From assembly GCA_022768065.1 (NCBI GenBank), contig JALELS010000012.1:1-50843 (forward strand): a stretch of 50,843 nucleotides of DNA, in the 5' to 3' direction. The translations under genes were made by a program, and so were the position numbers. Every line of letters begins with the position of its first letter. The stretch's first letter is position 1. Under the pieces are notes generated by a model that saw only the letters and a program-made list of their open reading frames with translations, was not told the origin of the DNA and made no database searches. Shown one piece after another: positions 14,972 through 27,446 of this stretch. This stretch comes from Ruminococcus sp. GTDB taxonomy: Bacteria > Bacillota > Clostridia > Oscillospirales > Acutalibacteraceae.

Positions 14972-14996
14972 CCAAAAAATCAGTCTTGGGTGACAA
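14965..14996 (-). promoter_or_regulatory. BirA-like (biotin repressor) operator
   Basis: Minus strand half-sites TTGTCACCC and GGTTGACAA are separated by 14 bases; the halves are complementary at 8 of 9 positions and fit the Firmicute BirA pattern of TTGTnAACC, 14-16 bases, GGTTnACAA. The left half lies in the last codons of proS and its stop. The right half overlaps the bioY -35 box. Confidence 0.75.
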
Positions 14997-16713
14997 TATA
15001 TTTTTTGAGCATATCGCGAACCATCTGCTCAACCGTTTCCTTAACCTCGGAAACCGGAACCTTCTTGCTGACGGATTTGTCTCTTGTAACGACCTCGCAG
15101 ACATTTTCGCCCATATTTCTGGGGCTTACTATCACACGCACCGGCACGCCGAGCAAGTCGGCGTCTGAGAACATAACGCCGGGACGCACGTTTCTGTCGT
15201 CATATATAACCTCAATGCCGTCATTCTGCAAATCGTTATATAACGAGTCCGCAAAGCTCTTGGCGTTCTCATCATCGGAACGCAGGCAGCAGAGATGAAC
15301 CTGCCACGGTGCTATTGACATAGGCCAAATAGGACCGTATTCATCATGGTGAGCTTCACATACCGACGCAGCAAGTCTGCCGACGCCTATACCGTAGCAG
15401 CCCATTATGGGGTACTGCGCGTTGCCGTCCTTATCGAGGTATGTCATATTCATACTCTTTGTATATTTTGTTCCGAGTTGGAATATGTTTCCTACCTCGA
15501 TGCCGCGTGAAATTTTTATGGTATGCTTGCCGCAATTCGGGCAAATGCCGCCGGCGGTTATTTTGGCTACATCAACATATTCGGCATCGGGAACGTCGCG
15601 CTCCATACAAAGCCCCGTATAGTGAAAGCCCTCTTTATTGGCTCCGCACGACAGATTGTTTGTGCCTTTAAGCGAGCGGTCGTAAACGACCCTGAAATCG
15701 CCGTTTAAGTTGTACGGTCCTATAAATCCCGCTTTAAGTCCGCACTCTTCGGTAATGACACCGGGGTGGATGTTTTCACAGAGATAATTTGTAAGCTTGG
15801 TTTCGTTTACGTCAAGGTCGCCTCTTATGAACACAACCACAAATTTATCGTCCGAATTCTGCTGATATACAACAGCCTTGCAGGACTTTTCAAGCGGCGA
15901 TTTGAGGAAATTGCAAATATCCTCTATTGTATGGATGTTCGGTGTTTCGACAAGCTCCAAATTCTCGCTTACATCGTCTTTTTTGTTTTCGATAATGTTC
16001 TCGGCAGCCTCCATATTTGCCCTGTAATCGCACTCGGAGCAGTAAGCGATTGTATCTTCGCCGACCGTAGTTAAAAGCATATATTCGTGAGAGACGCTGC
16101 CGCCCATCATACCCGAATCCGATTTTACGGCAACAACCTCCGGCAATCCGGCACGCGCAAAAATGCGGTTGTACGCTTCGTAAACCTCCATATAGTATTT
16201 TTCGAGGTCTTCCTGCGAAGTGTGGAAAGAATATGCGTCCTTCATTGTAAATTCACGAACGCGTATAAGACCTGCGCGCGGTCTTGCTTCGTCACGGAAT
16301 TTAGTCTGAATCTGGTATATCATAAACGGATATTTGGAGTAGGAATTTGCATACTCGCGAACAAGCTGCACCGCGGCCTCCTCGTGAGTCATACCGAGAA
16401 CAAGACGCGCATTGTTGCGGTCGGTAAAACGCATAAGCTCGCTTCCGACGCTTTCATATCTGCCCGACTCATCCCAGAGGCTCGCCGGAAGAACCACCGG
16501 GAATTTTACCTCCTGACCGCCTACCTTATCCATCTCATCGCGGAGTATATCCTCGATTTTACGGCATATACGGTTAAGCGGAGTAAACTGAGAATAAATA
16601 CCGTTTGCAACGCCCTTCATATATCCGCCGCGCAACATCAGCGCGTGGCTGTCAATAACGCAGTCGGACGGTTTTTCTTTGAATCTCTCGCCTACGAGCT
16701 TATCAAGTTTCAT
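14980..16713 (-). CDS. proS: Prolyl-tRNA synthetase
   Basis: A 577-residue class II synthetase that charges tRNA-Pro. Motif 2 is FRDEARPRAGLIRVREF at about 137-153, MTHEEA lies at about 108-113, and GCYGIGVGR near 440 is motif 3. The roughly 180-residue insertion between motifs 2 and 3 is the editing (INS) domain that clears mis-charged Ala-tRNA, typical of the bacterial-type enzyme. The gene is preceded by a T-box leader with a proline-type specifier candidate and a consensus promoter, so it should be induced when uncharged tRNA-Pro accumulates. Its last codons overlap the BirA-like operator of bioY. Confidence 0.96.
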   Translation of the reverse strand: MKLDKLVGERFKEKPSDCVIDSHALMLRGGYMKGVANGIYSQFTPLNRICRKIEDILRDEMDKVGGQEVKFPVVLPASLWDESGRYESVGSELMRFTDRNNARLVLGMTHEEAAVQLVREYANSYSKYPFMIYQIQTKFRDEARPRAGLIRVREFTMKDAYSFHTSQEDLEKYYMEVYEAYNRIFARAGLPEVVAVKSDSGMMGGSVSHEYMLLTTVGEDTIAYCSECDYRANMEAAENIIENKKDDVSENLELVETPNIHTIEDICNFLKSPLEKSCKAVVYQQNSDDKFVVVFIRGDLDVNETKLTNYLCENIHPGVITEECGLKAGFIGPYNLNGDFRVVYDRSLKGTNNLSCGANKEGFHYTGLCMERDVPDAEYVDVAKITAGGICPNCGKHTIKISRGIEVGNIFQLGTKYTKSMNMTYLDKDGNAQYPIMGCYGIGVGRLAASVCEAHHDEYGPIWPMSIAPWQVHLCCLRSDDENAKSFADSLYNDLQNDGIEVIYDDRNVRPGVMFSDADLLGVPVRVIVSPRNMGENVCEVVTRDKSVSKKVPVSEVKETVEQMVRDMLKKYIVTQD

Positions 16714-16743: not shown

Positions 16744-16967
16744 TCCCGAACGAAGCTTTGGCTTCATTCAGGACAAACTAACAAAATAGCCTGCGGTACC
16801 ACCTGTATTCGGAAAATCCGCTCTCATTTGTCTGTAACGGGACGCCCGCCGCGTTCTGCGCGGAGCTTAAAGACGGGTTCGATAATACCGCCGCAGGGCT
16901 TTCACCGACCGCCCGCTCTCTGAAACGACAGATACTATCTACTGTTTCTCATCAACGCTTTTTAAAT
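16744..16967 (-). promoter_or_regulatory. T-box leader of proS
   Basis: The conserved T-box core AGGTGGTACCGC is at 16804-16793 on the minus strand. Downstream is the terminator: TCCTGAATGAAGC pairs with GCTTCGTTCGGGA at 16773-16744, followed by TTTATTTTTT. Upstream, Stem I has an AGTA/GAA-type arrangement and GAACCCGTC near 16880-16872 as the specifier region, containing proline codons CCC or CCG. Binding of uncharged tRNA-Pro would favour the antiterminator. Confidence 0.88.
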
Positions 16968-18225: not shown

Positions 18226-19374
18226 TCACAACACTTCGGAATAGCTGCCGAGATACGTAAAATCGTCGATACTGCCAGACAGCTCGGTAATAACGCGTGA
18301 AAAGCCGTCGGAGTGAACGGGCGACTCAATGTCAAAGTAAAACATAAATTCAAAATCCCTGTCCTTTAAAGGTCGGCTTTCAAGCTTTAAAAGGTTTATA
18401 TCATAAGCAAAAAATCTCGCAAGAATATTGTAAAGCGAGCCGGGTTCGTGCGGCAAGGTCATCATAAGGCTCGTTTTATCGGCGCCGGGATAAACCTCAA
18501 GGTCCTTACAGATACATATAAAACGTGTGTAATTGTTGCCCGTATCCTGTATATCCGAGGACAGCGAGCAAAGCCCGTACAGCCCTGCACAGTCCGCCGA
18601 AGATATTGCCGCAACATCGCGGCGGTCGCTCTCGGCAACCATTTTTGCAGCCATTGCCGTATTGGCACAAACGGTAACCTTGACTCCGCTTAAAGAATTT
18701 AAAAATCCCGAGCACTGATTTATTGCCTGTTCGTGAGAAAAAATCTCTTTTACATCGGTAAGCGCCGTTCCCTTTTTGGCAAGCAGCGAATGGTCAACTT
18801 TGAGGCGTATACTGCGTACTATATAGAATTTATTTTTGCTCATAAGGTCATAGACCTTATTTACGGAGCCTGCCGTGCTGTTTTCGATAGGCAGTACACC
18901 GTAGCGGCAAAGCCCGTTTTGAACGGCCGAAAAGACACCGTCGAAGCTGTCAAAAAACATTATATCGGGATAACGGAACAGCTTTTCGCAGGCGAGGCTC
19001 GAATATGCTCCCTCTACGCCCTGGCACGCAACAACGGCTTCGCTCGGAAAAACATCGGCGGTATTTGCGGACGCCGACAGTATTTTTTCGGACAGAGCGG
19101 ACGTATTGTCAAGGAATCTGTGCTGATACGAACGCGAGAGATTTAACACGGTGGAATAAAGAAGCCTTGTATATGTTTTCATATCGTCGCCCGACATTTT
19201 TGCCACGCGGTTTAAAAGTTCGCGCTCACGGGCACGGTCAAGCACCGGCATACCGGTTTTTTTCTTATACTCGGCCACCGACAGCGAAACGCCCATACGC
19301 TTTATAAAAAGCTCCACAAATTCGCGGTCGATATCGTTTATCTCACTTCTTAATTCGTTAATATCCTTATCCAT
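18226..19374 (-). CDS. pheA: Bifunctional chorismate mutase/prephenate dehydratase
   Basis: A 382-residue P-protein making phenylpyruvate from chorismate. Residues 1-90 are an AroQ-type chorismate mutase (INELRSEINDIDREFVELFIKR, basic helix RARERELL). Residues about 110-285 are prephenate dehydratase (GVEGAYSSLA, LPIENSTAGSV, and the catalytic NYTRFI). The C-terminal 80 residues are an ACT domain with LLKLESRP, the phenylalanine-binding motif, so feedback inhibition by Phe is expected. The start was set at ATG 19374, 7 bases after AAAGGAT, rather than the GTG two codons earlier. Last gene of the aro operon. Confidence 0.95.
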   Translation of the reverse strand: MDKDINELRSEINDIDREFVELFIKRMGVSLSVAEYKKKTGMPVLDRARERELLNRVAKMSGDDMKTYTRLLYSTVLNLSRSYQHRFLDNTSALSEKILSASANTADVFPSEAVVACQGVEGAYSSLACEKLFRYPDIMFFDSFDGVFSAVQNGLCRYGVLPIENSTAGSVNKVYDLMSKNKFYIVRSIRLKVDHSLLAKKGTALTDVKEIFSHEQAINQCSGFLNSLSGVKVTVCANTAMAAKMVAESDRRDVAAISSADCAGLYGLCSLSSDIQDTGNNYTRFICICKDLEVYPGADKTSLMMTLPHEPGSLYNILARFFAYDINLLKLESRPLKDRDFEFMFYFDIESPVHSDGFSRVITELSGSIDDFTYLGSYSEVL

Positions 19375-19397
19375 TGCCACTATCCTTTCGGAATTTT

Positions 19398-20465
19398 TTA
19401 AAGAATTATATCAAGCATTGTCACAGCCGTTACCGCTTCGACTGCGGGTACGGCACGCGGCACTATGCACGGGTCGTGCCTGCCCTTTATCAAAAGCTCC
19501 TCTTCCTCCATCGTTACGAGGTTTACGCTCTGTTGAGGCTTGCCTATGGACGGAGTAGGCTTTATTGCCACGCGGAAAACTATTGGCATACCGCTTGTTA
19601 TACCGCCGAGAATTCCACCGTGATTATTTGTTTTGGTGCGTACTGTGCCGTCCGATACAGTAAATTCATCGTTATTTTCGCTTCCGCGCAGCAGTGCCGA
19701 TGAAAATCCCCTGCCGAACTCTATACCCTTTACGGCAGGTATTCCGAAAACAGCGGCGGCAAGACGGTTTTCGATACCGTCAAACATAGGTTCGCCGAAG
19801 CCTGCTTTTACTCCGGTTACGGCACACTCTATAATTCCGCCGACCGAGTCAGAGTCAAGCCTCGCCTTTTCTATTTCCGCTTTCATCTTTTCTCCGGCAT
19901 CATCGTTTATAACGGGAAATTCTTTTTCCGCGATATTTTCGTCTGTTATATTGACCGGGTCGAATTTTTCATCTTCTACGCCGCCTACGGACGCTATATG
20001 CGCCTTAATATCTATACCCTTTTGCTTTAAAATCTGCATACAAACGCTTCCGGCAAAGCAAAGCGGCGCAGTCAGCCTGCCCGAGAAGTGCCCACCGCCC
20101 GCAATGTCATTAAAGCTGTTATACTTTACAGCCGCGGCATAGTCGGAATGACCGGGGCGCGGAAGAGTACGTATATTGCCGTAGTCGCCGGAACGCGTAT
20201 TTGTATTCGCAATCATCATCGCAAGAGGCGCGCCGCACGTAGTATTATCAACAAGTCCCGACAATATTACGGGCTTATCCGCCTCGCGGCGCGTTGTCGA
20301 ATATTTATTGCGACCCGGCGCTCTTCTCTCCATAAATTTTTCTATTGACAAGGTATCAAGCTTTACTCCTGCCGGCAGTCCGTCAATAACACAGCCTATC
20401 GCTTCGGAGTGTGACTGACCGAAAACCGAGACATTTATCTTGTTTCCTTTAAGAATTGATGACAT
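19398..20465 (-). CDS. aroC: Chorismate synthase
   Basis: A 355-residue FMN-dependent lyase that converts EPSP to chorismate. Visible signatures are VFGQSHSEAIG near the N-terminus, RRAPGRNKYSTTRREAD, GRPGHSDYAA-like LPRPGHSDYA and the RPTPS-like IKPTPSIG near 325. ATG 20465 follows GGAGG; an upstream in-frame ATG lies in the aroA end. The start lies 17 bases inside aroA, so translation is coupled. Confidence 0.96.
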   Translation of the reverse strand: MSSILKGNKINVSVFGQSHSEAIGCVIDGLPAGVKLDTLSIEKFMERRAPGRNKYSTTRREADKPVILSGLVDNTTCGAPLAMMIANTNTRSGDYGNIRTLPRPGHSDYAAAVKYNSFNDIAGGGHFSGRLTAPLCFAGSVCMQILKQKGIDIKAHIASVGGVEDEKFDPVNITDENIAEKEFPVINDDAGEKMKAEIEKARLDSDSVGGIIECAVTGVKAGFGEPMFDGIENRLAAAVFGIPAVKGIEFGRGFSSALLRGSENNDEFTVSDGTVRTKTNNHGGILGGITSGMPIVFRVAIKPTPSIGKPQQSVNLVTMEEEELLIKGRHDPCIVPRAVPAVEAVTAVTMLDIIL

Positions 20466-21717
20466 TGTAACTACCTCCGAGCGAAGAAAAATCTTCAAAG
20501 AAATTCGGGTAAGATTTATTTACCGCTTCTGCTCCGTGCAAAATAATATCGCCGCTTGAAACAGCGGACAAAACGGAAAGCGCCATAACCATACGGTGGT
20601 CGTTATATCCGCTGACAACACCGCCGCCGACAAAGCCCGTTCCGTTTATCACAAGTCCGTCGTCTGTTTTTAATATATCGACTCCGAGAATTTTAAGGCT
20701 TTCGTAAACTGCCGTAAGTCTGTCGGATTCCTTTATTTTAAGTCTTTCGGCACCCGTTATCACGGTCTTGCCGTCATTTGCCGCGGCTGCTGCCACGGAA
20801 AGTATCGGAACAAGGTCGGGAATATTTCGCGCGTCGATATTTGTGCCGTGCAAATTGCCTTTTTCGACGGTTATACTGTCACGGTTTAAGGATATTTCGG
20901 CTCCCATTTCTTTAAGAATTGTAAGTATTTGTTTATCGCCCTGAACGTACGAGAGGTCAAGCCCGGTTACGGTGACCTTGCCCGAAACGGCACCTGCCGT
21001 CAGGAAAAATGCCGAATTTGACCAATCGCCTTGTGATACGGCAGTACCCGGGGACACATACTTTTGCCCTCCGGGTATAAAGAACCGATTATTATCTTCT
21101 TTTACGCTTATTCCGAATTTTTTTAACGTATTAAGCGTCATATCTATATACGGTCTCGATTCGACGGGCGGTATAACGTTAATAACGCTGTCACCGTTTA
21201 AAAGCGGCAGTGCAAACAAAAGCCCCGTAATAAACTGAGAGCTTATATTTCCCTTAATCGTAAATTCGCCCGATGTCATTTCGCCGCTTATTTTAACGGG
21301 GAATACATTTATCGGTGAAAAGACGACACCGTGAGCCTCCATTTGCTCACGCAGCGGAGACAACGGACGCTCGGGAAGTCTGCCGCCGCCGGTAAACTCG
21401 GCGTTTGTTCCGAGCGCCGCGGCAACGGGGAGTAAAAATCTGATGGTTGAGCCGCTCTCGTTACAATCAAGTACGGCGTTTTTTCTTTTTTCTTTGATGG
21501 GGTTAACCGAAATACCGCCGTCAACAAATTTAATATCCGCTCCGAGCGAATTAAGGCAATTCACCGTTGCCGTTATATCGGCGGAACGGGTGTTGCACCT
21601 TATAAAAGTCGGCTTGTCGCTGAGCGCCGAGGCTATTAAAAGCCTGTGGGCGTCCGATTTTGACGACAGAGCTTTGACTTCACCGCAAAAGCGGCACGGT
21701 TTTAGCCTTATATCCAT
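20449..21717 (-). CDS. aroA: EPSP synthase (3-phosphoshikimate 1-carboxyvinyltransferase)
   Basis: A 422-residue enzyme of the shikimate pathway that joins PEP to shikimate 3-phosphate. The substrate Lys-Ser region is LSSKSDAHR at 18-26, followed by NESGSTIRFLLPVAAALG and RLPERPLSPL, then the C-terminal IKESDRL and NDHRMVMAL. The first motif glycine found in glyphosate-sensitive class I enzymes (LPGSKS type) reads ALSSKS here. It overlaps aroB by one base (TAATG) and aroC by 17. Confidence 0.95.
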   Translation of the reverse strand: MDIRLKPCRFCGEVKALSSKSDAHRLLIASALSDKPTFIRCNTRSADITATVNCLNSLGADIKFVDGGISVNPIKEKRKNAVLDCNESGSTIRFLLPVAAALGTNAEFTGGGRLPERPLSPLREQMEAHGVVFSPINVFPVKISGEMTSGEFTIKGNISSQFITGLLFALPLLNGDSVINVIPPVESRPYIDMTLNTLKKFGISVKEDNNRFFIPGGQKYVSPGTAVSQGDWSNSAFFLTAGAVSGKVTVTGLDLSYVQGDKQILTILKEMGAEISLNRDSITVEKGNLHGTNIDARNIPDLVPILSVAAAAANDGKTVITGAERLKIKESDRLTAVYESLKILGVDILKTDDGLVINGTGFVGGGVVSGYNDHRMVMALSVLSAVSSGDIILHGAEAVNKSYPNFFEDFSSLGGSYNVINS

Positions 21718-22772
21718 TAACTGAGTCCCTCGCTGATTATTTTTTCAAGCTCCGAAGTCGGTACACTTTTTATAACACAGTTACCGAGAGTTTCGGGAAT
21801 TATCAATTTTATGCTGTCACCCGACCGTTTTTTGTCCGCCATTGCCGCGGACGAAAGCTCTTTTGCGGAAAAAACGGTGCTGACGGGCAAAGAATATTTT
21901 TTATTGAGCGACGCTATAATATCGGCGTAATTTTCGCCGCAGAAATAGCATTTGTATGCCGCTCTTGATATTATTACCATTCCGACGGCAACCGCACTTC
22001 CGTGTGAAATTTTATATCCGCTGCATTTTTCTATGGCGTGACCTACTGTGTGTCCGAAGTTCAGGAGCGCTCTGACGCCTTTTTCCTTTTCGTCGGCATT
22101 TACAATGTCGCGCTTTAACTCCACACAGCGTGTTATTACACATTCGAGATTGTCTTTTGCCTCGTTATCGCGCAGAAATTCAAAAAACGCTTTGTCGAAA
22201 ATCGCCCCGTACTTAATGACTTCAGCCATTCCGTCGGCAAAAATCCCGTCGGTAAGTGTTGAGAGAGTCTTAAAATCTGCTATAACAAGCTTCGGCTGAT
22301 AAAATGCACCCGCAAGATTCTTACCTGCCTTTAGGTCTATTGCGGTTTTTCCGCCCACGGACGAGTCAACGCACGCCAAAAGCGTGGTCGGTATCTGAAT
22401 AAAATCTATACCTCGCAGATAGCTTGCGGCGGCAAATCCCGCGACGTCGCCGACAACTCCGCCGCCGAGCGCCACCAAGGCGTCGGTTCTTGTAAGTCCG
22501 CTCTCGGCTAAAAATTCGAGTATTGAAGAAAATGTTGATATATTTTTTGATTTTTCCCCGTGCGGAAATACAAATTTAAAGGTTTCAAAGCCTGCGTCGG
22601 AGAGCGACTTAATAACTACATCCGAATAGAGCTTATCTACGGTATCGTCGGTTATCACAGCCACCCTTTCGGCGGAAGTGACTTCTTTTATCATATCGCC
22701 GCTTTTCGGCAAAATGCCCTTGTCAATTACAATATTATAACGCACGGCAGCGTCTACTTCAACTGTTTTCAT
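21717..22772 (-). CDS. aroB: 3-dehydroquinate synthase
   Basis: A 351-residue NAD- and metal-dependent enzyme that makes 3-dehydroquinate from DAHP. Segments include GGGVVGDVAGFAAASYLRG with the NAD-binding glycines, QIPTTLLACVDSSVGGKTAID, and the metal-binding HTVGHAIE and HGSAVAVGM. GGAGGC lies close to the ATG. It lies between tyrA and aroA with minimal spacing, consistent with one transcript. Confidence 0.96.
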   Translation of the reverse strand: MKTVEVDAAVRYNIVIDKGILPKSGDMIKEVTSAERVAVITDDTVDKLYSDVVIKSLSDAGFETFKFVFPHGEKSKNISTFSSILEFLAESGLTRTDALVALGGGVVGDVAGFAAASYLRGIDFIQIPTTLLACVDSSVGGKTAIDLKAGKNLAGAFYQPKLVIADFKTLSTLTDGIFADGMAEVIKYGAIFDKAFFEFLRDNEAKDNLECVITRCVELKRDIVNADEKEKGVRALLNFGHTVGHAIEKCSGYKISHGSAVAVGMVIISRAAYKCYFCGENYADIIASLNKKYSLPVSTVFSAKELSSAAMADKKRSGDSIKLIIPETLGNCVIKSVPTSELEKIISEGLS

Positions 22773-22794: not shown

Positions 22795-23640
22795 TCAGTT
22801 TTTATACATACCGTCTATCTTTTCTTTGCGCTCGCGGCCCTCTTTTAAAAGCGCCTTCAACGTGACGGCATCGTGCTCTTTGAGAGCCTTTGAATACTTT
22901 TGCAGGTTTGCTATAATGCCGTCTACCTCGTTTATGAGATTATCCTCATTTTCAAGGAAAAGCTCTGTCCACATAGTCTCATTGAGCTTTGCTACACGCG
23001 TTAAATCCTTGTAGCTGCCTGCCGAAAATCCCTTGTGCACTTCTGCCTCGGGGCTTTTAACATATGTGTTTGAAACGACGTGGGCAAGCTGAGAAGTATA
23101 GGCTATTATCTTGTCGTGCTCCTCGGGAGTCGATATCTGAATATTTGTAAATCCGAGTTTGAGATACAGCTTTTTCACTTCCTCCAAATCCTCGATTTTA
23201 ACGTCCTTTGAGGGAATAATTATCATGGAAGCGTCGGAGAACATACCGACGTCGGAATATTCAAATCCCGAGAAGTGAAGTCCCGCCATGGGGTGCGCTC
23301 CGATAAACGTAAATCCGTTTTCGGAAGCAACCTTCCAGAGCGGCTCGCAAACAACACGTTTGACGCCGCAGGAATCCATAACTATGGCGCCTTTTTTTAT
23401 CTTATCCGCATGAGTGCGTACAAATTCGAGCGTATCGTTCGGGTAAAGTCCCAAAATCACCATATCGCACGTCGGGAGAATATCATTTGTGAGCTCTTCG
23501 TCAACCGCACCCAAAAGCTTTGCTTTAAGCAAAACTCCGCGGTCGATGTCATAACCGTAAACGGTATTATCAGTATTGTATTTGATTGCCTTGGCTATTG
23601 AGCCGCCGATAAGTCCCAAACCTACTATTGCTATATTCAT
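22795..23640 (-). CDS. tyrA: Prephenate dehydrogenase
   Basis: A 281-residue NAD(P)-dependent enzyme leading to 4-hydroxyphenylpyruvate and tyrosine. The dinucleotide fold starts at residue 1 with VGLGLIGGS; GAHPMAGLHFSGF and SQLAHVVSN carry the conserved catalytic His residues. No C-terminal ACT domain is present, so feedback may be set mainly at the attenuator and at AroF/PheA. Typical length for clostridial TyrA. Confidence 0.94.
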   Translation of the reverse strand: MNIAIVGLGLIGGSIAKAIKYNTDNTVYGYDIDRGVLLKAKLLGAVDEELTNDILPTCDMVILGLYPNDTLEFVRTHADKIKKGAIVMDSCGVKRVVCEPLWKVASENGFTFIGAHPMAGLHFSGFEYSDVGMFSDASMIIIPSKDVKIEDLEEVKKLYLKLGFTNIQISTPEEHDKIIAYTSQLAHVVSNTYVKSPEAEVHKGFSAGSYKDLTRVAKLNETMWTELFLENEDNLINEVDGIIANLQKYSKALKEHDAVTLKALLKEGRERKEKIDGMYKN

Positions 23641-23658: not shown

Positions 23659-24666
23659 TTACAGATTGTTTACTGTTTCTCTTATAGCGTTAACGCCTCT
23701 TGTTACCTCAGCGAATTCCTCCGGACGAAGAGCCTGAGGACCGTCGCAAAGAGCTTTAGCAGGGTCGTTGTGAACCTCTATCATAAGGCCGTCTGCACCG
23801 CATGCGGCAGCCGCAAAGGACATCGGCTTTACAAGTCTTGCAATACCAGAAGCATGGCTCGGGTCAACAACTACGGGGAGATGCGTCATCTCGTGGAGCA
23901 TTGCGACAGCCGAAAGGTCGAGAGTATTTCTCGTGGCAGTCTCAAATGTTCTTATGCCGCGCTCACAGAGTATAACCTTTTGGTTGCCCTCAGCCATAAT
24001 GTATTCGGCGCTCATAAGGAATTCCTGGAGTGTGGCGCAAAGTCCGCGCTTTAAGAAAATTGGCTTGTCTATTCTGCCGAGTTCCTTTAAAAGCTCGAAG
24101 TTTTGCATATTTCTTGCTCCGACCTGAATTATGTCTACGTTTTCAAACAAATCGAGGTGAGACGCGTCCATAATTTCGGTAACTATCGGCATACCGGTTT
24201 CTTTTTTTGCCTCAAGCAAAAGTTCAAGTCCCTCGGCACGCATTCCCTGGAAAGCATAGGGCGAAGTACGCGGTTTGAAAGCGCCGCCTCTTAAAATATT
24301 GGCGCCTGCCTTTTTGACGTCTTTTGCTATCGAGATTATCTGCTCACGGCTCTCAACCGAGCAAGGACCTGCAAAATACTGGAAGTTGCCGCCGCCTATT
24401 TTATGTCCGCCGACATCAATAATCGTATCGTCGGGGTGGAATTTTCTGTTGGCGTTTTTATACGGCTCGGAAATTCTTTTTACCTTTTCAACTATGTCGA
24501 GTCCCTGTATAAGGTCGATGTCGATTTTGCTTGTATCGCCGATAAGGCCTAAAATCGTCTGGTACTCGCCTATAACCTTATGAACCGAAATTTTTTGATT
24601 TTCGAGCCAATCGGTAAGATTTTTTACCTTTTTACTGTCTGCACCGTCTTTTAAAATTACTACCAT
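23659..24666 (-). CDS. aroF: DAHP synthase (class I, beta type)
   Basis: A 335-residue 3-deoxy-7-phosphoheptulonate synthase, the first step of the shikimate pathway (PEP plus erythrose 4-phosphate). Residues 1-70 form the ferredoxin-like N-terminal regulatory domain of the beta subtype; the barrel begins near 85 with FAGPCSVES and contains LRGGAFKPRTSPYAFQG, KRGLCATLQEF and VDPSHASG. It is the first structural gene after the leader peptide and terminator, so its transcription depends on Tyr/Phe-tRNA supply by inference. ATG follows AAGGAG. Confidence 0.95.
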   Translation of the reverse strand: MVVILKDGADSKKVKNLTDWLENQKISVHKVIGEYQTILGLIGDTSKIDIDLIQGLDIVEKVKRISEPYKNANRKFHPDDTIIDVGGHKIGGGNFQYFAGPCSVESREQIISIAKDVKKAGANILRGGAFKPRTSPYAFQGMRAEGLELLLEAKKETGMPIVTEIMDASHLDLFENVDIIQVGARNMQNFELLKELGRIDKPIFLKRGLCATLQEFLMSAEYIMAEGNQKVILCERGIRTFETATRNTLDLSAVAMLHEMTHLPVVVDPSHASGIARLVKPMSFAAAACGADGLMIEVHNDPAKALCDGPQALRPEEFAEVTRGVNAIRETVNNL

Positions 24667-24696
24667 TTTTTTGCTCCTTACTCTGAAAAATAAAAA

Positions 24697-24723
24697 GTCC
24701 CGCAGCGAATTTCACTGCGGGAC
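24697..24723 (-). terminator. Attenuator terminator of the aro operon
   Basis: Perfect 9-bp stem GTCCCGCAG/CTGCGGGAC on the minus strand, followed by TTTTTATTTTT, 25 bases after the leader peptide stop codon and 31 before aroF. Confidence 0.92.
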
Positions 24724-24778
24724 GCATTTACCAAAATACCTTAAATCTCAGCACGCTATCTGTTTTGCAGCAAAATTC
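24707..24778 (-). promoter_or_regulatory. Antiterminator pairing region
   Basis: On the minus strand GAATTTTGCTGC (24778-24767), inside the leader peptide's MNFAA codons, can pair with GCAGTGAAATTC (24718-24707) over 12 positions with two G-U pairs. The second element is the 5' arm and loop of the terminator, so the two structures exclude each other. A ribosome halted on the Tyr/Phe run leaves the first element free; one reaching the stop codon covers it. Confidence 0.8.
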
Positions 24779-24849
24779 ATACTAGCCTTACCAAAAAAGT
24801 TGATAAAGTAAAAGTAATAGTATGAAGCTGTAAAGACAAGATTACGCAT
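24748..24849 (-). CDS. Tyr/Phe leader peptide of the aro operon
   Basis: A 33-residue leader peptide with GAGGT 9 bases before its ATG. Residues 9-19 read SYYYFYFINFF: four Tyr and five Phe in the whole run and its surroundings, then GKASMNFAAKQIAC and a TGA. It ends just before the terminator at 24697-24723 and lies 50 bases before aroF-tyrA-aroB-aroA-aroC-pheA. This is the layout of classical ribosome-mediated attenuation: shortage of charged tRNA-Tyr or tRNA-Phe stalls translation in the run and lets the antiterminator form. The peptide itself probably has no other function. Confidence 0.9.
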   Translation of the reverse strand: MRNLVFTASYYYFYFINFFGKASMNFAAKQIAC

Positions 24850-24884
24850 TTAATTATTACCTCAATATTTTAGCGGTTTAAAGT

Positions 24885-24913
24885 ATAATAATACCAAAGA
24901 TTTAATTTGTCAA
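24885..24913 (-). promoter_or_regulatory. aro operon promoter
   Basis: Minus strand TTGACA, 17-base spacer, TATTAT. The -35 box begins only six bases after the stop codon of the ABC ATPase gene. Confidence 0.8.
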
Positions 24914-24919
24914 CACTTT

Positions 24920-25717
24920 TTATAAAACTTTTGAAAGAAAATCTTTCAACCTCGGATTTTGCGGATTTGTGAAAAGCTCCTCGGGAGTATTTTCTTCAAG
25001 AATTTTACCGTCGTCCATAAACAGAACTCTGTCGCCGACCTCGCGGGCAAATCCCATTTCATGGGTAACAACAACCATGGTCATACCCTCTTTTGCAAGC
25101 TCTTTCATAACCTCAAGTACCTCGCCTACCATTTCGGGGTCGAGGGCGCTTGTGGGCTCGTCAAAAAGAATGACATCGGGATTCATGGCGAGTGCGCGGA
25201 CTATTGCCACACGCTGCTTCTGACCGCCCGAAAGCTGTGACGGATAAACGTCCGCTTTATCGGCAAGACCTATTCTGTTAAGCAGCTCAAGAGCATTTTT
25301 ACGGGCTTCCTCTTTTATCTGTTTAGAGGTTTTTACCGGTTCTTTGGTCGTAGCTTTGCCGAACATATTTTGACGGCGGAGCTGCCTCATTCTGCGTTTC
25401 TCGCAGAGCACGGGCGACAGCATTATATTCTCTATAACGGTTTTGTTGTTAAAGAGATTAAAGTGCTGAAAGACCATTCCTATTTTTTCGCGCTGTCTGT
25501 TTATATTGACTTTCATATCCGTAAGGTCTACTCCGTGGTAAAGCACCTTGCCGGATGTGGGATCCTCCATACAGTTAAGGCATCGAAGCAGTGTACTTTT
25601 ACCCGAACCCGACGGTCCTATTATAACCACTTTTTCGCCCTGCTCTATTTTAAGGTTTATACCCTTTAATACGGAGAGGTCGCCGAAGCTTTTGCAAAGA
25701 TCAATGACTTCTATCAC
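24920..25717 (-). CDS. Polar amino acid ABC transporter ATPase
   Basis: A 265-residue ATPase of the GlnQ/ArtP/HisP group, which energises uptake of polar amino acids. Walker A is GPSGSGKST at 34-42, Q-loop in VFQHFNLF near 84, signature LSGGQKQR near 162, Walker B ILFDEPTS and H-loop VVTHEM. Between Q-loop and signature there is an extra basic stretch of about 25 residues ([10 protein letters not shown] to TSKQIKEE) not found in standard GlnQ. The start is a GTG 17 bases inside the permease gene, with AAAGGAG 11 bases upstream. No terminator separates it from the aro promoter. Confidence 0.92.
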
Positions 25718-26411
25718 TCTTCTTCAGGCTCCTTTCCATAATTTTGATGAAGAAGCTGATTATCAGCACCATCAAAATATAAATGATTGCCATAACAAGG
25801 TACGGCACCATAAATTCATAACTGTTGCTGCCTATATAGTTGAATGCAACATACAGGTCCGTAGCGCCGACAAAGCTTACTACCGAGGTCTCTTTGATAA
25901 GAGAGATAAACTCATTGCCGAGAGTAGGCAAAATGTTTTTTATCGCCTGCGGAATGATAATCTTCATCATCGTGGTTCCGTAACTCATACCTACGGCTCT
26001 GCCGCCCTCCATTTGACCGGGGTCGACAGACTGTATGCCGCTTCGCATTATCTCGGAAACATATGCCGCGCTGTTAAGCCCGAATACACATACGGATACC
26101 GCAACAGATGTCATTTTAATATTCATAAGCGGCAAAAGCACGTAATAAAATACAAGAAGCTGTACAACTACCGGTGTTCCTCTGAAAAGGCTTACATAAA
26201 AACTGCAAAAGCCGTTTAAAATGCGCGGCAGTCTTCTGTATTTCGGCAAAACCCTGACTGTGGCTATAAGAGTACCTATCAGTATACCGATAACAAGACC
26301 CAAGACGGCTATTATAAGAGTATTTTTAAGGCCCAACAGTACCTTATTATAGGCGCCTGCGTTTATAAACACATCAATAAAGCGCTTGACCTTAATATCA
26401 AAATTACCCAT
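25701..26411 (-). CDS. Amino acid ABC transporter permease
   Basis: A 236-residue permease of the HisMQ type with about five hydrophobic segments. [18 protein letters not shown] opens the conserved permease fold, [19 protein letters not shown] is a family segment, and the EAA-type loop [24 protein letters not shown] contacts the ATPase. It is one permease gene, so a homodimer is expected. It lies 81 bases after the binding-protein gene, separated by a hairpin. Confidence 0.93.
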
Positions 26412-26439
26412 GTATCAAATTCCTTACTTTAATATAAAC

Positions 26440-26468
26440 AATGCCCCACTTTTATTAGGTGAGGCATT
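26440..26468 (-). terminator. Hairpin between binding-protein and permease genes
   Basis: Minus strand arms AATGCCTCAC and GTGGGGCATT pair with one mismatch, followed by TTGTTTATATT rather than a clean U-run. Probably a partial terminator or 3' stabiliser that keeps the binding protein in excess over permease and ATPase. Confidence 0.6.
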
Positions 26469-26492
26469 GAAGTGTTAAGTCTTAACAGTAAT

Positions 26493-27386
26493 TCAGTTTA
26501 CTTCGTTTATAGACTGAGCAATGCAAGCCGCGGGAGCAGCGTCAATTATAACATAATTGATATTGCCGTTAATCATATCCTGAACAGCAAGAGAACCGCT
26601 CTTGTAGCCTACGCAAACAGCGTTAAGTCCGGGGAATTCCATCTCGGCGTCGCCCTCGCAGTAAAGCTGAGCTGTGGTGCCGTTCTGAACACCGATTTTT
26701 ACGCTGCTGTCAAAGGTTTTAAGAATAGCCTCAACCGAAGCGGCATCCGTGCAGCTGTCGAACTTGGTGTCTGTACCCTTAACGATAAGTCTCTGAGAAG
26801 CCTTGTAATAAGGAGTTGAGAATGTAACATACTCTTCTCTCTCGGGCTTTACGGTAAGACCTGCCATTGCAAGATCGCACTTATGCTGACCTACCGAGAG
26901 GCAAACCGAGTCAAAGTCCATATTCTGGATAACAAGTTCTTTACCGAGAGAATCGGCAAGAGCCTTTGCAATTTCCATATCAATACCGCTGTAGCCGTCG
27001 CCGTTTGTATACTCAAACGGTTCAAAAGCCGCGTTGGTGGCAACTACGAGCTGATCCTTGGTAGAATCAAGAGCCGCCGACTTGATAACATCTGGAGTGC
27101 CGCCGGCGAAATATTTATTGCATATTGCGTCGAAAGTACCGTTAGATTTGATTTCGGCAATAAAGCTGTTAACCTTTTCGAGAAGCTCGGGCTGATTTTT
27201 GTCAACGCCGAATGCATAATCTTCATCGGTAAGGTTGATTTCGATTACCTTAACTGCCGGTGTTTTTGCTTCCTTAGTCGTATCCGAACCGGTTGCGGCG
27301 TCATCTTTGCTGCCGCAAGCCGCAAATGACATAACCATCAAAACGGCTACGAGCATAAGCGAAATAACTTTTAATGCTTTTTTCAT
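26493..27386 (-). CDS. Amino acid-binding lipoprotein, apparently circularly permuted
   Basis: A 297-residue SBP family 3 lipoprotein. Residues 1-24 are a lipoprotein signal ending in SFAAC, with lipid on C24. Residues 46-94 (INLTDEDYAFGVDKN to CNKYF) resemble the segment that normally ends family 3 binding proteins. Residues 111-297 then start at the usual N-terminus (LVVATNAAFEPFEY), pass SGIDMEIAKAL and the carboxylate-binding Arg region (TVKPERE) and stop right after YVIIDAAPAACIAQSIN, where the missing tail should follow. The domain order is therefore that of a circular permutant. ATG 27386 follows GGAGG. Promoter just upstream. Confidence 0.85.
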   Translation of the reverse strand: MKKALKVISLMLVAVLMVMSFAACGSKDDAATGSDTTKEAKTPAVKVIEINLTDEDYAFGVDKNQPELLEKVNSFIAEIKSNGTFDAICNKYFAGGTPDVIKSAALDSTKDQLVVATNAAFEPFEYTNGDGYSGIDMEIAKALADSLGKELVIQNMDFDSVCLSVGQHKCDLAMAGLTVKPEREEYVTFSTPYYKASQRLIVKGTDTKFDSCTDAASVEAILKTFDSSVKIGVQNGTTAQLYCEGDAEMEFPGLNAVCVGYKSGSLAVQDMINGNINYVIIDAAPAACIAQSINEVN

Positions 27387-27417
27387 TACGATTCCTCCGT
27401 AATAATTTAATGGATAT

Positions 27418-27446
27418 ATAATATCACTATCTGTCAAATTATGCAA
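27418..27446 (-). promoter_or_regulatory. Promoter of the amino acid ABC operon
   Basis: Minus strand TTGCAT, 17-base spacer, TATTAT, about 25 bases before the ribosome site. A TTGACA inside the spacer has no well-placed partner. Confidence 0.55.

Follow-up and report, generated by a model that had tools for sequence, protein, structure and literature searches.

What controls the operon aroF-tyrA-aroB-aroA-aroC-pheA in Ruminococcus sp., and can a single sensor answer to both tyrosine and phenylalanine? The question is raised by a short ORF rich in Tyr and Phe codons that stands before the operon within the window, the whole 50,843-nt stretch of DNA analyzed here (contig JALELS010000012.1, assembly GCA_022768065.1). 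The Tyr/Phe leader at 24697..24913 on its minus strand is referred to below as the window leader. The first-pass annotation had placed a 33-codon Tyr/Phe peptide before all of these genes, and had the codons for Met-Asn-Phe-Ala-Ala (MNFAA) pair over 12 positions with the 5' side of a terminator. All of these parts are present on the minus strand, and the pairing exists as 12 contiguous pairs, two of which are G-U. The features are as follows, with the protein assignments made by Pfam.

24885..24913, minus strand: putative leader promoter, sigma-70-type, with -35 TTGACA (24913-24908), a 17-nt spacer and -10 TATTAT (24890-24885); 11/12 matches
24860..24863, minus strand: leader Shine-Dalgarno (SD) GAGG, 10 nt 5' of the ATG, read from the sequence
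24748..24849, minus strand: leader peptide ORF, 33 codons, MRNLVFTASYYYFYFINFFGKASMNFAAKQIAC, stop UGA at 24750-24748; similar leaders occur in relatives
24827..24834, minus strand: region 1, the 5' strand of the protector, TTTACAGC, codons Phe6-Thr7-Ala8
24793..24825, minus strand: sensor run SYYYFYFINFF, 8/11 aromatic (Tyr10, 11, 12 and 14; Phe13, 15, 18 and 19)
24764..24784, minus strand: region 2, in which GAATTTTGCTGC (24778-24767) pairs with region 3 and GCTGCAAA (24771-24764) and TAGTATGAA (24784-24776) face region 1; the GCTG core is common
24707..24718, minus strand: region 3, GCAGTGAAATTC, in the 5' arm and loop of the terminator, partner of region 2
24687..24723, minus strand: predicted intrinsic terminator (3:4), stem 24723-24697, U-tract 24696-24687
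23659..24666, minus strand: aroF, DAHP synthase (DAHP_synth_1, 4.1e-76), with SD AAGGAG at 24679-24674
22795..23640, minus strand: tyrA, prephenate dehydrogenase (PDH_N and PDH_C)
21717..22772, minus strand: aroB, 3-dehydroquinate synthase
20449..21717, minus strand: aroA, EPSP synthase
19398..20498, minus strand: aroC, chorismate synthase; the listed TTG start lies inside aroA, and the ATG at 20465 is likelier
18226..19380, minus strand: pheA, chorismate mutase-prephenate dehydratase (CM_2 and PDT)

Eight of residues 10-19 of the window leader peptide are Tyr or Phe. The 12 bases GAATTTTGCTGC, which pair with GCAGTGAAATTC, run from the third base of the Met24 codon to within that of Ala28. 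In the window's species, region 1 is lengthened by TTCATACTA at 24826-24818. The terminator has 12 pairs, a 3-nt loop and a calculated energy of -21.6 kcal/mol, and is followed by TTTTTATTTT. TTGACA with a 17-nt spacer is also found 5' of 20/21 genus leaders examined. An amino-acid-type ABC transporter (binding protein, permease and ATPase; 24920-27446, minus strand) ends 6 nt before the leader -35, and between the two no minus-strand terminator was detected; transcripts of the transporter may read through into the leader.

The window leader most probably acts by classical ribosome-mediated transcription attenuation of the aroF operon, a reading to which we assign a probability of about 0.87. 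As in a classical attenuator, an ORF with an SD and an aromatic run, a terminator before the first gene and a conserved 2:3 pairing that excludes the terminator are all found, and the downstream genes make the amino acids that would be sensed. Likewise, in the E. coli pheL, trpL and pheST leaders a stalled ribosome allows an antiterminator to pre-empt the terminator. In Ruminococcus sp., RNA polymerase would start near 24878, as the promoter suggests, with a ribosome following on the leader ORF. When charged tRNA-Tyr and tRNA-Phe are ample, the ribosome would clear the aromatic codons and leave; region 1 (codons 6-8 and their neighbors) would then form a helix with region 2 and leave region 3 free, the 3:4 terminator would form and transcription would end before aroF. 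When either of these charged tRNAs runs short, the ribosome would stall within the run, covering or separating region 1. Region 2, about 19 nt past the last aromatic codon, would then be free to pair with the emerging region 3, and 2:3 would pre-empt the terminator, so that the common-pathway, Tyr-branch and Phe-branch genes would be transcribed.

If this reading is correct, similar leaders should recur before related aroF genes, as the first-pass annotation had anticipated. DAHP synthase is present in 40 of 59 relatives. The 42 loci from these, together with the best 80 of 592 confirmed loci from a scan of named genomes, gave a first set of 122 upstream regions, two of which were too short (n = 120). 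A leader was called where an ORF of 12-45 codons had an SD and at least six Tyr/Phe within some 12-codon stretch. Such an ORF precedes 84/120 of the aroF genes, compared with 11 of 1,200 dinucleotide shuffles; 36 upstreams fell under the cut. Among the 25 loci from the same genus, 21 pass, three have five aromatic residues (L022, L023 and L025), and L014 has no leader. Reading by eye of 38 upstreams outside the set suggested about 16 weaker or longer leaders, which were kept out of the counts.

Two wider samples were read with a slightly looser caller (12-55 codons, extra SD words). Matches were present in 76/120 genomes across the family and in 145/196 across the class. The upstreams examined are part of the places listed (88 and 89, one incomplete place dropped from each), mostly those closest to the window's protein; 87 and 88 were examined, and one in each sample was too short. 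In the family sample (n = 86), 41 upstreams had an ORF with at least six Tyr/Phe, 12 had one with five, 1 carried a T-box motif and 32 had none of these; in the class sample (n = 87) the corresponding numbers were 48, 5, 7 and 27. Shuffled controls across both samples passed in 14/865 cases. The predicted recurrence is therefore seen in all three samples, well above shuffles. Of ten more distant paralogues of DAHP synthase met in the family sample (46%-50% identity), none had a leader (0/10). The genomes outside the named set are probably clostridia, judging from the named relatives, most of which bear the titles Clostridia, Clostridiales, Oscillospiraceae, Lachnospiraceae or Ruminococcus. Cultured bacteria with the leader include Angelakisella massiliensis (L047) and Sporobacter termitidis DSM 10068 (L082). 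An order-wide pattern search, aimed at leaders in front of genes other than aroF, matched 32/197 genomes; the 39 places listed correspond to 30 loci, of which 28 were examined and two (L161 and L162) were left out by a position filter. Among the places listed, three short run-bearing ORFs stand before DAHP synthase: the window leader (L136), L156 and L158; some of the other short runs may belong to leaders of different genes. Six consecutive aromatic codons occur at 12 places in the window's own genome, and at 21 with a reversed-pattern control, so the aromatic run alone is not rare.

The pairing between regions 2 and 3 of the window leader is, taken alone, just modestly better than chance, and it is the comparison that decides. 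As good a pairing was found in 4/200 mononucleotide shuffles, and an energy score against dinucleotide shuffles gave p = 0.16; both tests used the terminator 5' arm and loop only and saw 10 of the 12 pairs. A terminator was detected behind 77/84 leaders of the first set and 79/88 of a second set, in which 172 previously unused upstreams yielded 88 leaders; these counts include a few automatic calls that look wrong (e.g., L052 and L117). For the 77 first-set leaders with a terminator, the 2:3 pairing has a mean z of -1.9 (p < 0.05 in 33), and for the 79 of the second set a mean z of -2.0 (p < 0.05 in 39). When arms were exchanged between leaders, the leader's own arm beat the mean foreign arm in 70/77 cases (best tenth in 32/77), with averages of -14.2 and -10.8 kcal/mol, and in the second set in 74/79, with -14.4 and -9.9 kcal/mol; since the sequences are related by descent, these figures measure strength and are not counts of independent events.

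The alignment of 24 leaders from the genus shows which helices are retained. For 2:3, 89.6% of cells are paired (37%-55% when one strand is slid) and 13 cells have changed on both sides; for 3:4, 92.3% are paired and 38 cells have changed on both sides. For the protector helix 1:2 discussed below, 86.5% are paired (slid 22%-51%), with 13 cells changed on both sides. For all three helices, both the paired percentage and the number of cells changed on both sides lie above all 500 shuffles. Two measures robust to relatedness, the number of pairs changed on both sides and the number of pair types, fail to rise above shuffles for 2:3 (111/500 and 234/500, respectively) and for 1:2 (394/500 and 440/500), and give 41/500 and 136/500 for 3:4. 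In addition, 1:2 slid by -2 has a slightly higher covariation score (0.235 compared with 0.207 in register). Support from covariation within the genus is therefore moderate for 1:2 and 2:3.

A protector taken from the minimum-energy fold of the window leader was rejected as a general feature, with 59% of cells paired and up to 49% when slid. It was replaced by the pairing of TTTRCAGC, the Phe-Thr/Ala-Ala codons just 5' of the run, with GCTGYAAA in the 3' half of region 2. Because the GCTG core is common to both helices, 1:2 and 2:3 cannot form together; the predicted helices of terminator, antiterminator and protector exclude one another and are for the most part conserved. Some observations speak against the protector: the window leader has an A-C mismatch within the conserved part, and just 59/77 leaders pair better in 1:2 with their own partner than with the average foreign one. 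In its favor, the mean probability that region 2 pairs with the leader codons is 0.66, compared with 0.42 for shuffled codons, and 66/77 leaders lie above their own shuffle mean. In some distant leaders, 1:2 is rebuilt in other letters, for example as CGCATCATA/TGTGATGCG (L060), GCACGCA/TGCGTGC (L088) and GTGTACAGC/GCTGTACAC (L122).

The position of region 2 relative to the reading frame indicates what is being conserved. The tail of the peptide, which the first-pass annotation had expected to be conserved, is not: depending on the species, the RNA of the arm is read as F-A-A/V, as V-S-L-stop or as F-C-C. Judged by the arm's first nine paired bases, 48 of the 77 leaders have the arm within the ORF, 6 across the stop codon and 23 after it, and the stop codon lies between -23 and +33 nt relative to these bases. 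Classification by the full predicted duplex (35 within, 22 across and 20 after) overstates crossing where the duplex runs on. The GCTG core is found in 50/77 arms, 25, 8 and 4 of them in ORF frames 0, 1 and 2 and 13 after the stop; it is absent from 27. Because the arm changes frame and crosses or follows the stop among relatives, the peptide sequence of the tail is not conserved. What relatives retain is the RNA of the arm, and in the window's species the MNFAA codons are the predicted antiterminator strand. The explanation offered earlier for a conserved tail holds for the RNA arm and fails for the peptide. The leader arm offers a clear case of codons kept for RNA pairing instead of for the peptide.

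The geometry of the leaders is consistent with stalling within the run. The median distance that separates region 2 from the last aromatic codon is 19 nt in the first set (interquartile range 17-22) and 20 nt in the second (18-33), which is near the length of RNA that a ribosome covers downstream. Stalled-ribosome folding of the window leader was modeled by blocking the RNA from the AUG to ~13 nt past the A-site, at Tyr10, Phe13, Phe15 or Phe19, which removes region 1 by construction. Before region 4 is made, the calculated probability of 2:3 rises from 0.31 to 0.99. In equilibrium folds that include it, the terminator prevails whichever of the four ribosome states is imposed (P(3:4) = 0.98), so the switch must be kinetic, a matter of timing. 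Folding of the two alternative structures, suggested as a check in the first-pass annotation, thus favors 2:3 upon stalling as long as region 4 is absent, and at equilibrium favors the terminator in each of the four states. When a crude footprint is placed over the stop codon of the window leader, the probability of 2:3 is still 0.80. A ribosome parked at the stop would therefore not itself ensure termination, which in the window's species must depend on ribosome release and the formation of 1:2.

The exact order aroF-tyrA-aroB-aroA-aroC-pheA is found at 31/64 named leader loci, some of them on short contigs, and at 3/16 leaderless ones. Of the 48 leader loci followed by 6 kb or more of sequence, 40 have tyrA, 42 have aroB, 43 aroA, 45 aroC and 40 pheA. 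Twelve leaders judged by eye are included in these gene-order counts. The proposal that the peptide controls common and branch genes together is supported in the sense of a probable attenuation of the entire operon from aroF to pheA.

Could the arrangement arise without regulation, from a constitutive terminator and a chance aromatic ORF in AU-rich DNA? The leader is indeed AU-rich, the 2:3 pairing of the window leader is modest by itself, and runs of six aromatic codons are present elsewhere in the genome. The frequency of leaders before aroF in the three samples, far above that in shuffled sequences, and the conserved pairing of all three helices make such a coincidence hardly credible. A short peptide before a regulated operon is also what would be expected of nascent-chain arrest, in which the peptide itself, as in TnaC, arrests the ribosome with free Tyr or Phe as effector. 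The order of residues, the length and the C terminus of the leader peptides vary widely; what persists is how densely Tyr and Phe occur, along with the RNA arms. Moreover, a high level of the amino acid would presumably induce expression under such a mechanism, the wrong sign for a biosynthetic operon, and arrest of this kind is quite improbable.

Control of aroF by a T-box or another ligand-binding riboswitch, with the leader ORF incidental, is very improbable for the window leader. T-boxes do precede aroF at two related loci by Rfam (L041 and L042) and, by motif alone, at L241, L300, L304, L335-L338 and L340, and in the window's own genome tyrS and pheS each have a T-box match. Against this, the aromatic codons of the genus leaders are kept through synonymous third-base changes, which also suggests that the leader ORF is translated, and at the window leader no Rfam family reaches its cut-off, the T-box (RF00230) included. 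The best sub-threshold match there, the trpB motif (RF04312; 30.4 bits, cut-off 59), was discarded, as its first hairpin is broken and what it fits is the terminator. Attenuation by a translating ribosome is thus retained as the reading for this leader.

Whether the attenuator answers to both amino acids is less certain. That one leader peptide senses both Tyr and Phe is plausible and somewhat favored. Both residues are found in 84/84 runs of the first set and 87/88 of the second; the 84/84 says little, because by our estimate chance alone would leave only ~1 run in 84 without one of them. The genus leaders are more informative. Codons 10 and 12 encode Tyr in 24/24, with both synonymous codons in use, and codon 15 encodes Phe in 23/24, which suggests that both residues are kept. 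By comparison, codon 11 is interchangeable (Phe in 19/24 and Tyr in 5/24). This last position fits a leader that senses one amino acid alone and tolerates the other, TAY and TTY being one base apart and AU-rich RNA favoring both. In the same direction, the AroR leader peptide of Corynebacterium glutamicum, the closest counterpart that has been put to the test, with Phe-Tyr-Phe, is described as induced by limitation of Phe, availability of Tyr having no effect (PMC11802643). Set against the retention of Tyr at codons 10 and 12 and of Phe at codon 15, the presence of both residues in almost all runs (though chance gives nearly that) and an operon that serves both branches, a single-residue sensor is possible but the more doubtful of the two.

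T-boxes have their own place in this genome. T-boxes bind tRNA directly and need no translation, unlike an attenuator based on a leader peptide, and both types sense tRNA charging. Ten T-box matches were found in the window's own genome, six of them above the cut-off. The one at tyrS scores 121.5 bits and the one at pheS 88.9 bits, under the 93-bit cut-off; the genes behind nine of the T-boxes include tyrS, pheS, valS, leuA, cysE and thrS. The same cell appears, judging from these matches, to sense the charging of Tyr- and Phe-tRNA in two different ways. Two matches (L344 and L348) precede genes for TrpX-like substrate-binding proteins, under the NCBIfam cut-off, and one precedes a gene for a CstA-like protein, likewise under its own cut-off. 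The sole T-box in the window (16766-16964, minus strand; 96.2 bits, above the cut-off) stands upstream of the gene at 14980-16713, which we take to be proS. At the related loci where a T-box stands before aroF in place of the leader peptide of other species, one sensor of tRNA charging is exchanged for another. T-box control of tyrosine biosynthesis is mentioned for the Bacillus cereus group (PMC2494555).

The mechanism, as in trpL and pheL, is already known, and uORFs with F and Y before shikimate genes are already in print. The systems below were compared with the window leader by their descriptions alone. The E. coli pheL, trpL and pheST leaders (named in PMC11802643) share its mechanism but sense one amino acid each and belong to gammaproteobacteria. 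The C. glutamicum aroR leader, credited to Neshat et al. (2014) as described in PMC11802643, similarly places codons for Phe and Tyr ahead of a DAHP-synthase operon, and stalling is reported to enhance transcription. It differs in being actinobacterial, in having Phe-Tyr-Phe where the window leader has eight aromatic residues and in answering, by that account, to Phe and not to Tyr. The candidate uORFC-13-1 (PMC8632094) resembles the window leader in its promoter, RBS, uORF and intrinsic terminator and in its exclusive position before aroF; it is described from Acholeplasma and environmental sequences, with 24 representatives and at least one Phe codon, and that description as available makes no mention of Tyr. 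Two uORF candidates with F and Y at shikimate genes (PMC6429828) are alike as well and may overlap the clostridial family. The clostridial leader family and its spread beside tyrS and pheS T-boxes were not found in the open-licence literature, which misses most subscription papers.

The interest of the leader family lies in its breadth and in its implication for coupling. Control of amino acid genes in low-GC Gram-positive bacteria is usually attributed to T-boxes and proteins, and here classical attenuation appears, from sequence comparison, before a Tyr/Phe operon in many related families, mostly clostridia. Such a switch requires a ribosome that follows RNA polymerase closely. In Bacillus subtilis, another low-GC Gram-positive, RNA polymerase reportedly outruns the ribosomes, and the distance between stop codons and intrinsic terminators is described as a proxy for such uncoupling (PMC7858274); runaway transcription of this kind would weaken the switch. 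It has also raised the question of coupling (PMC7858274 and PMC9226507), and the leader offers a direct genetic test of it in clostridia, because its mechanism needs the ribosome close behind the polymerase. A tentative proposal, somewhat less than even in our estimation, is that the clostridial Tyr/Phe superoperon is governed by one dual-residue leader acting as an OR gate and dependent on close coupling of ribosome and RNA polymerase, beside translation-independent T-boxes at tyrS and pheS. On this view, transcription and translation would stay coupled in clostridia, at least along the leader, in contrast to B. subtilis, and classical attenuation would be a main mode of amino acid control in bacteria believed to depend on T-boxes.

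Two minor observations concern the edges of the leader family. Bins titled Lentisphaerae, Kiritimatiellae, Victivallales, Planctomycetia and Treponemataceae carry the same aroF with a leader recognized by eye (L080, L102, L109, L111 and L053), which would reflect either gene transfer or mis-binned contigs. A second type of leader, with a motif resembling RFTGFxYPRYFMAxDF, recurs in the family sample (L202, L203, L210, L216, L217, L222 and L292) and may form a separate sub-family.
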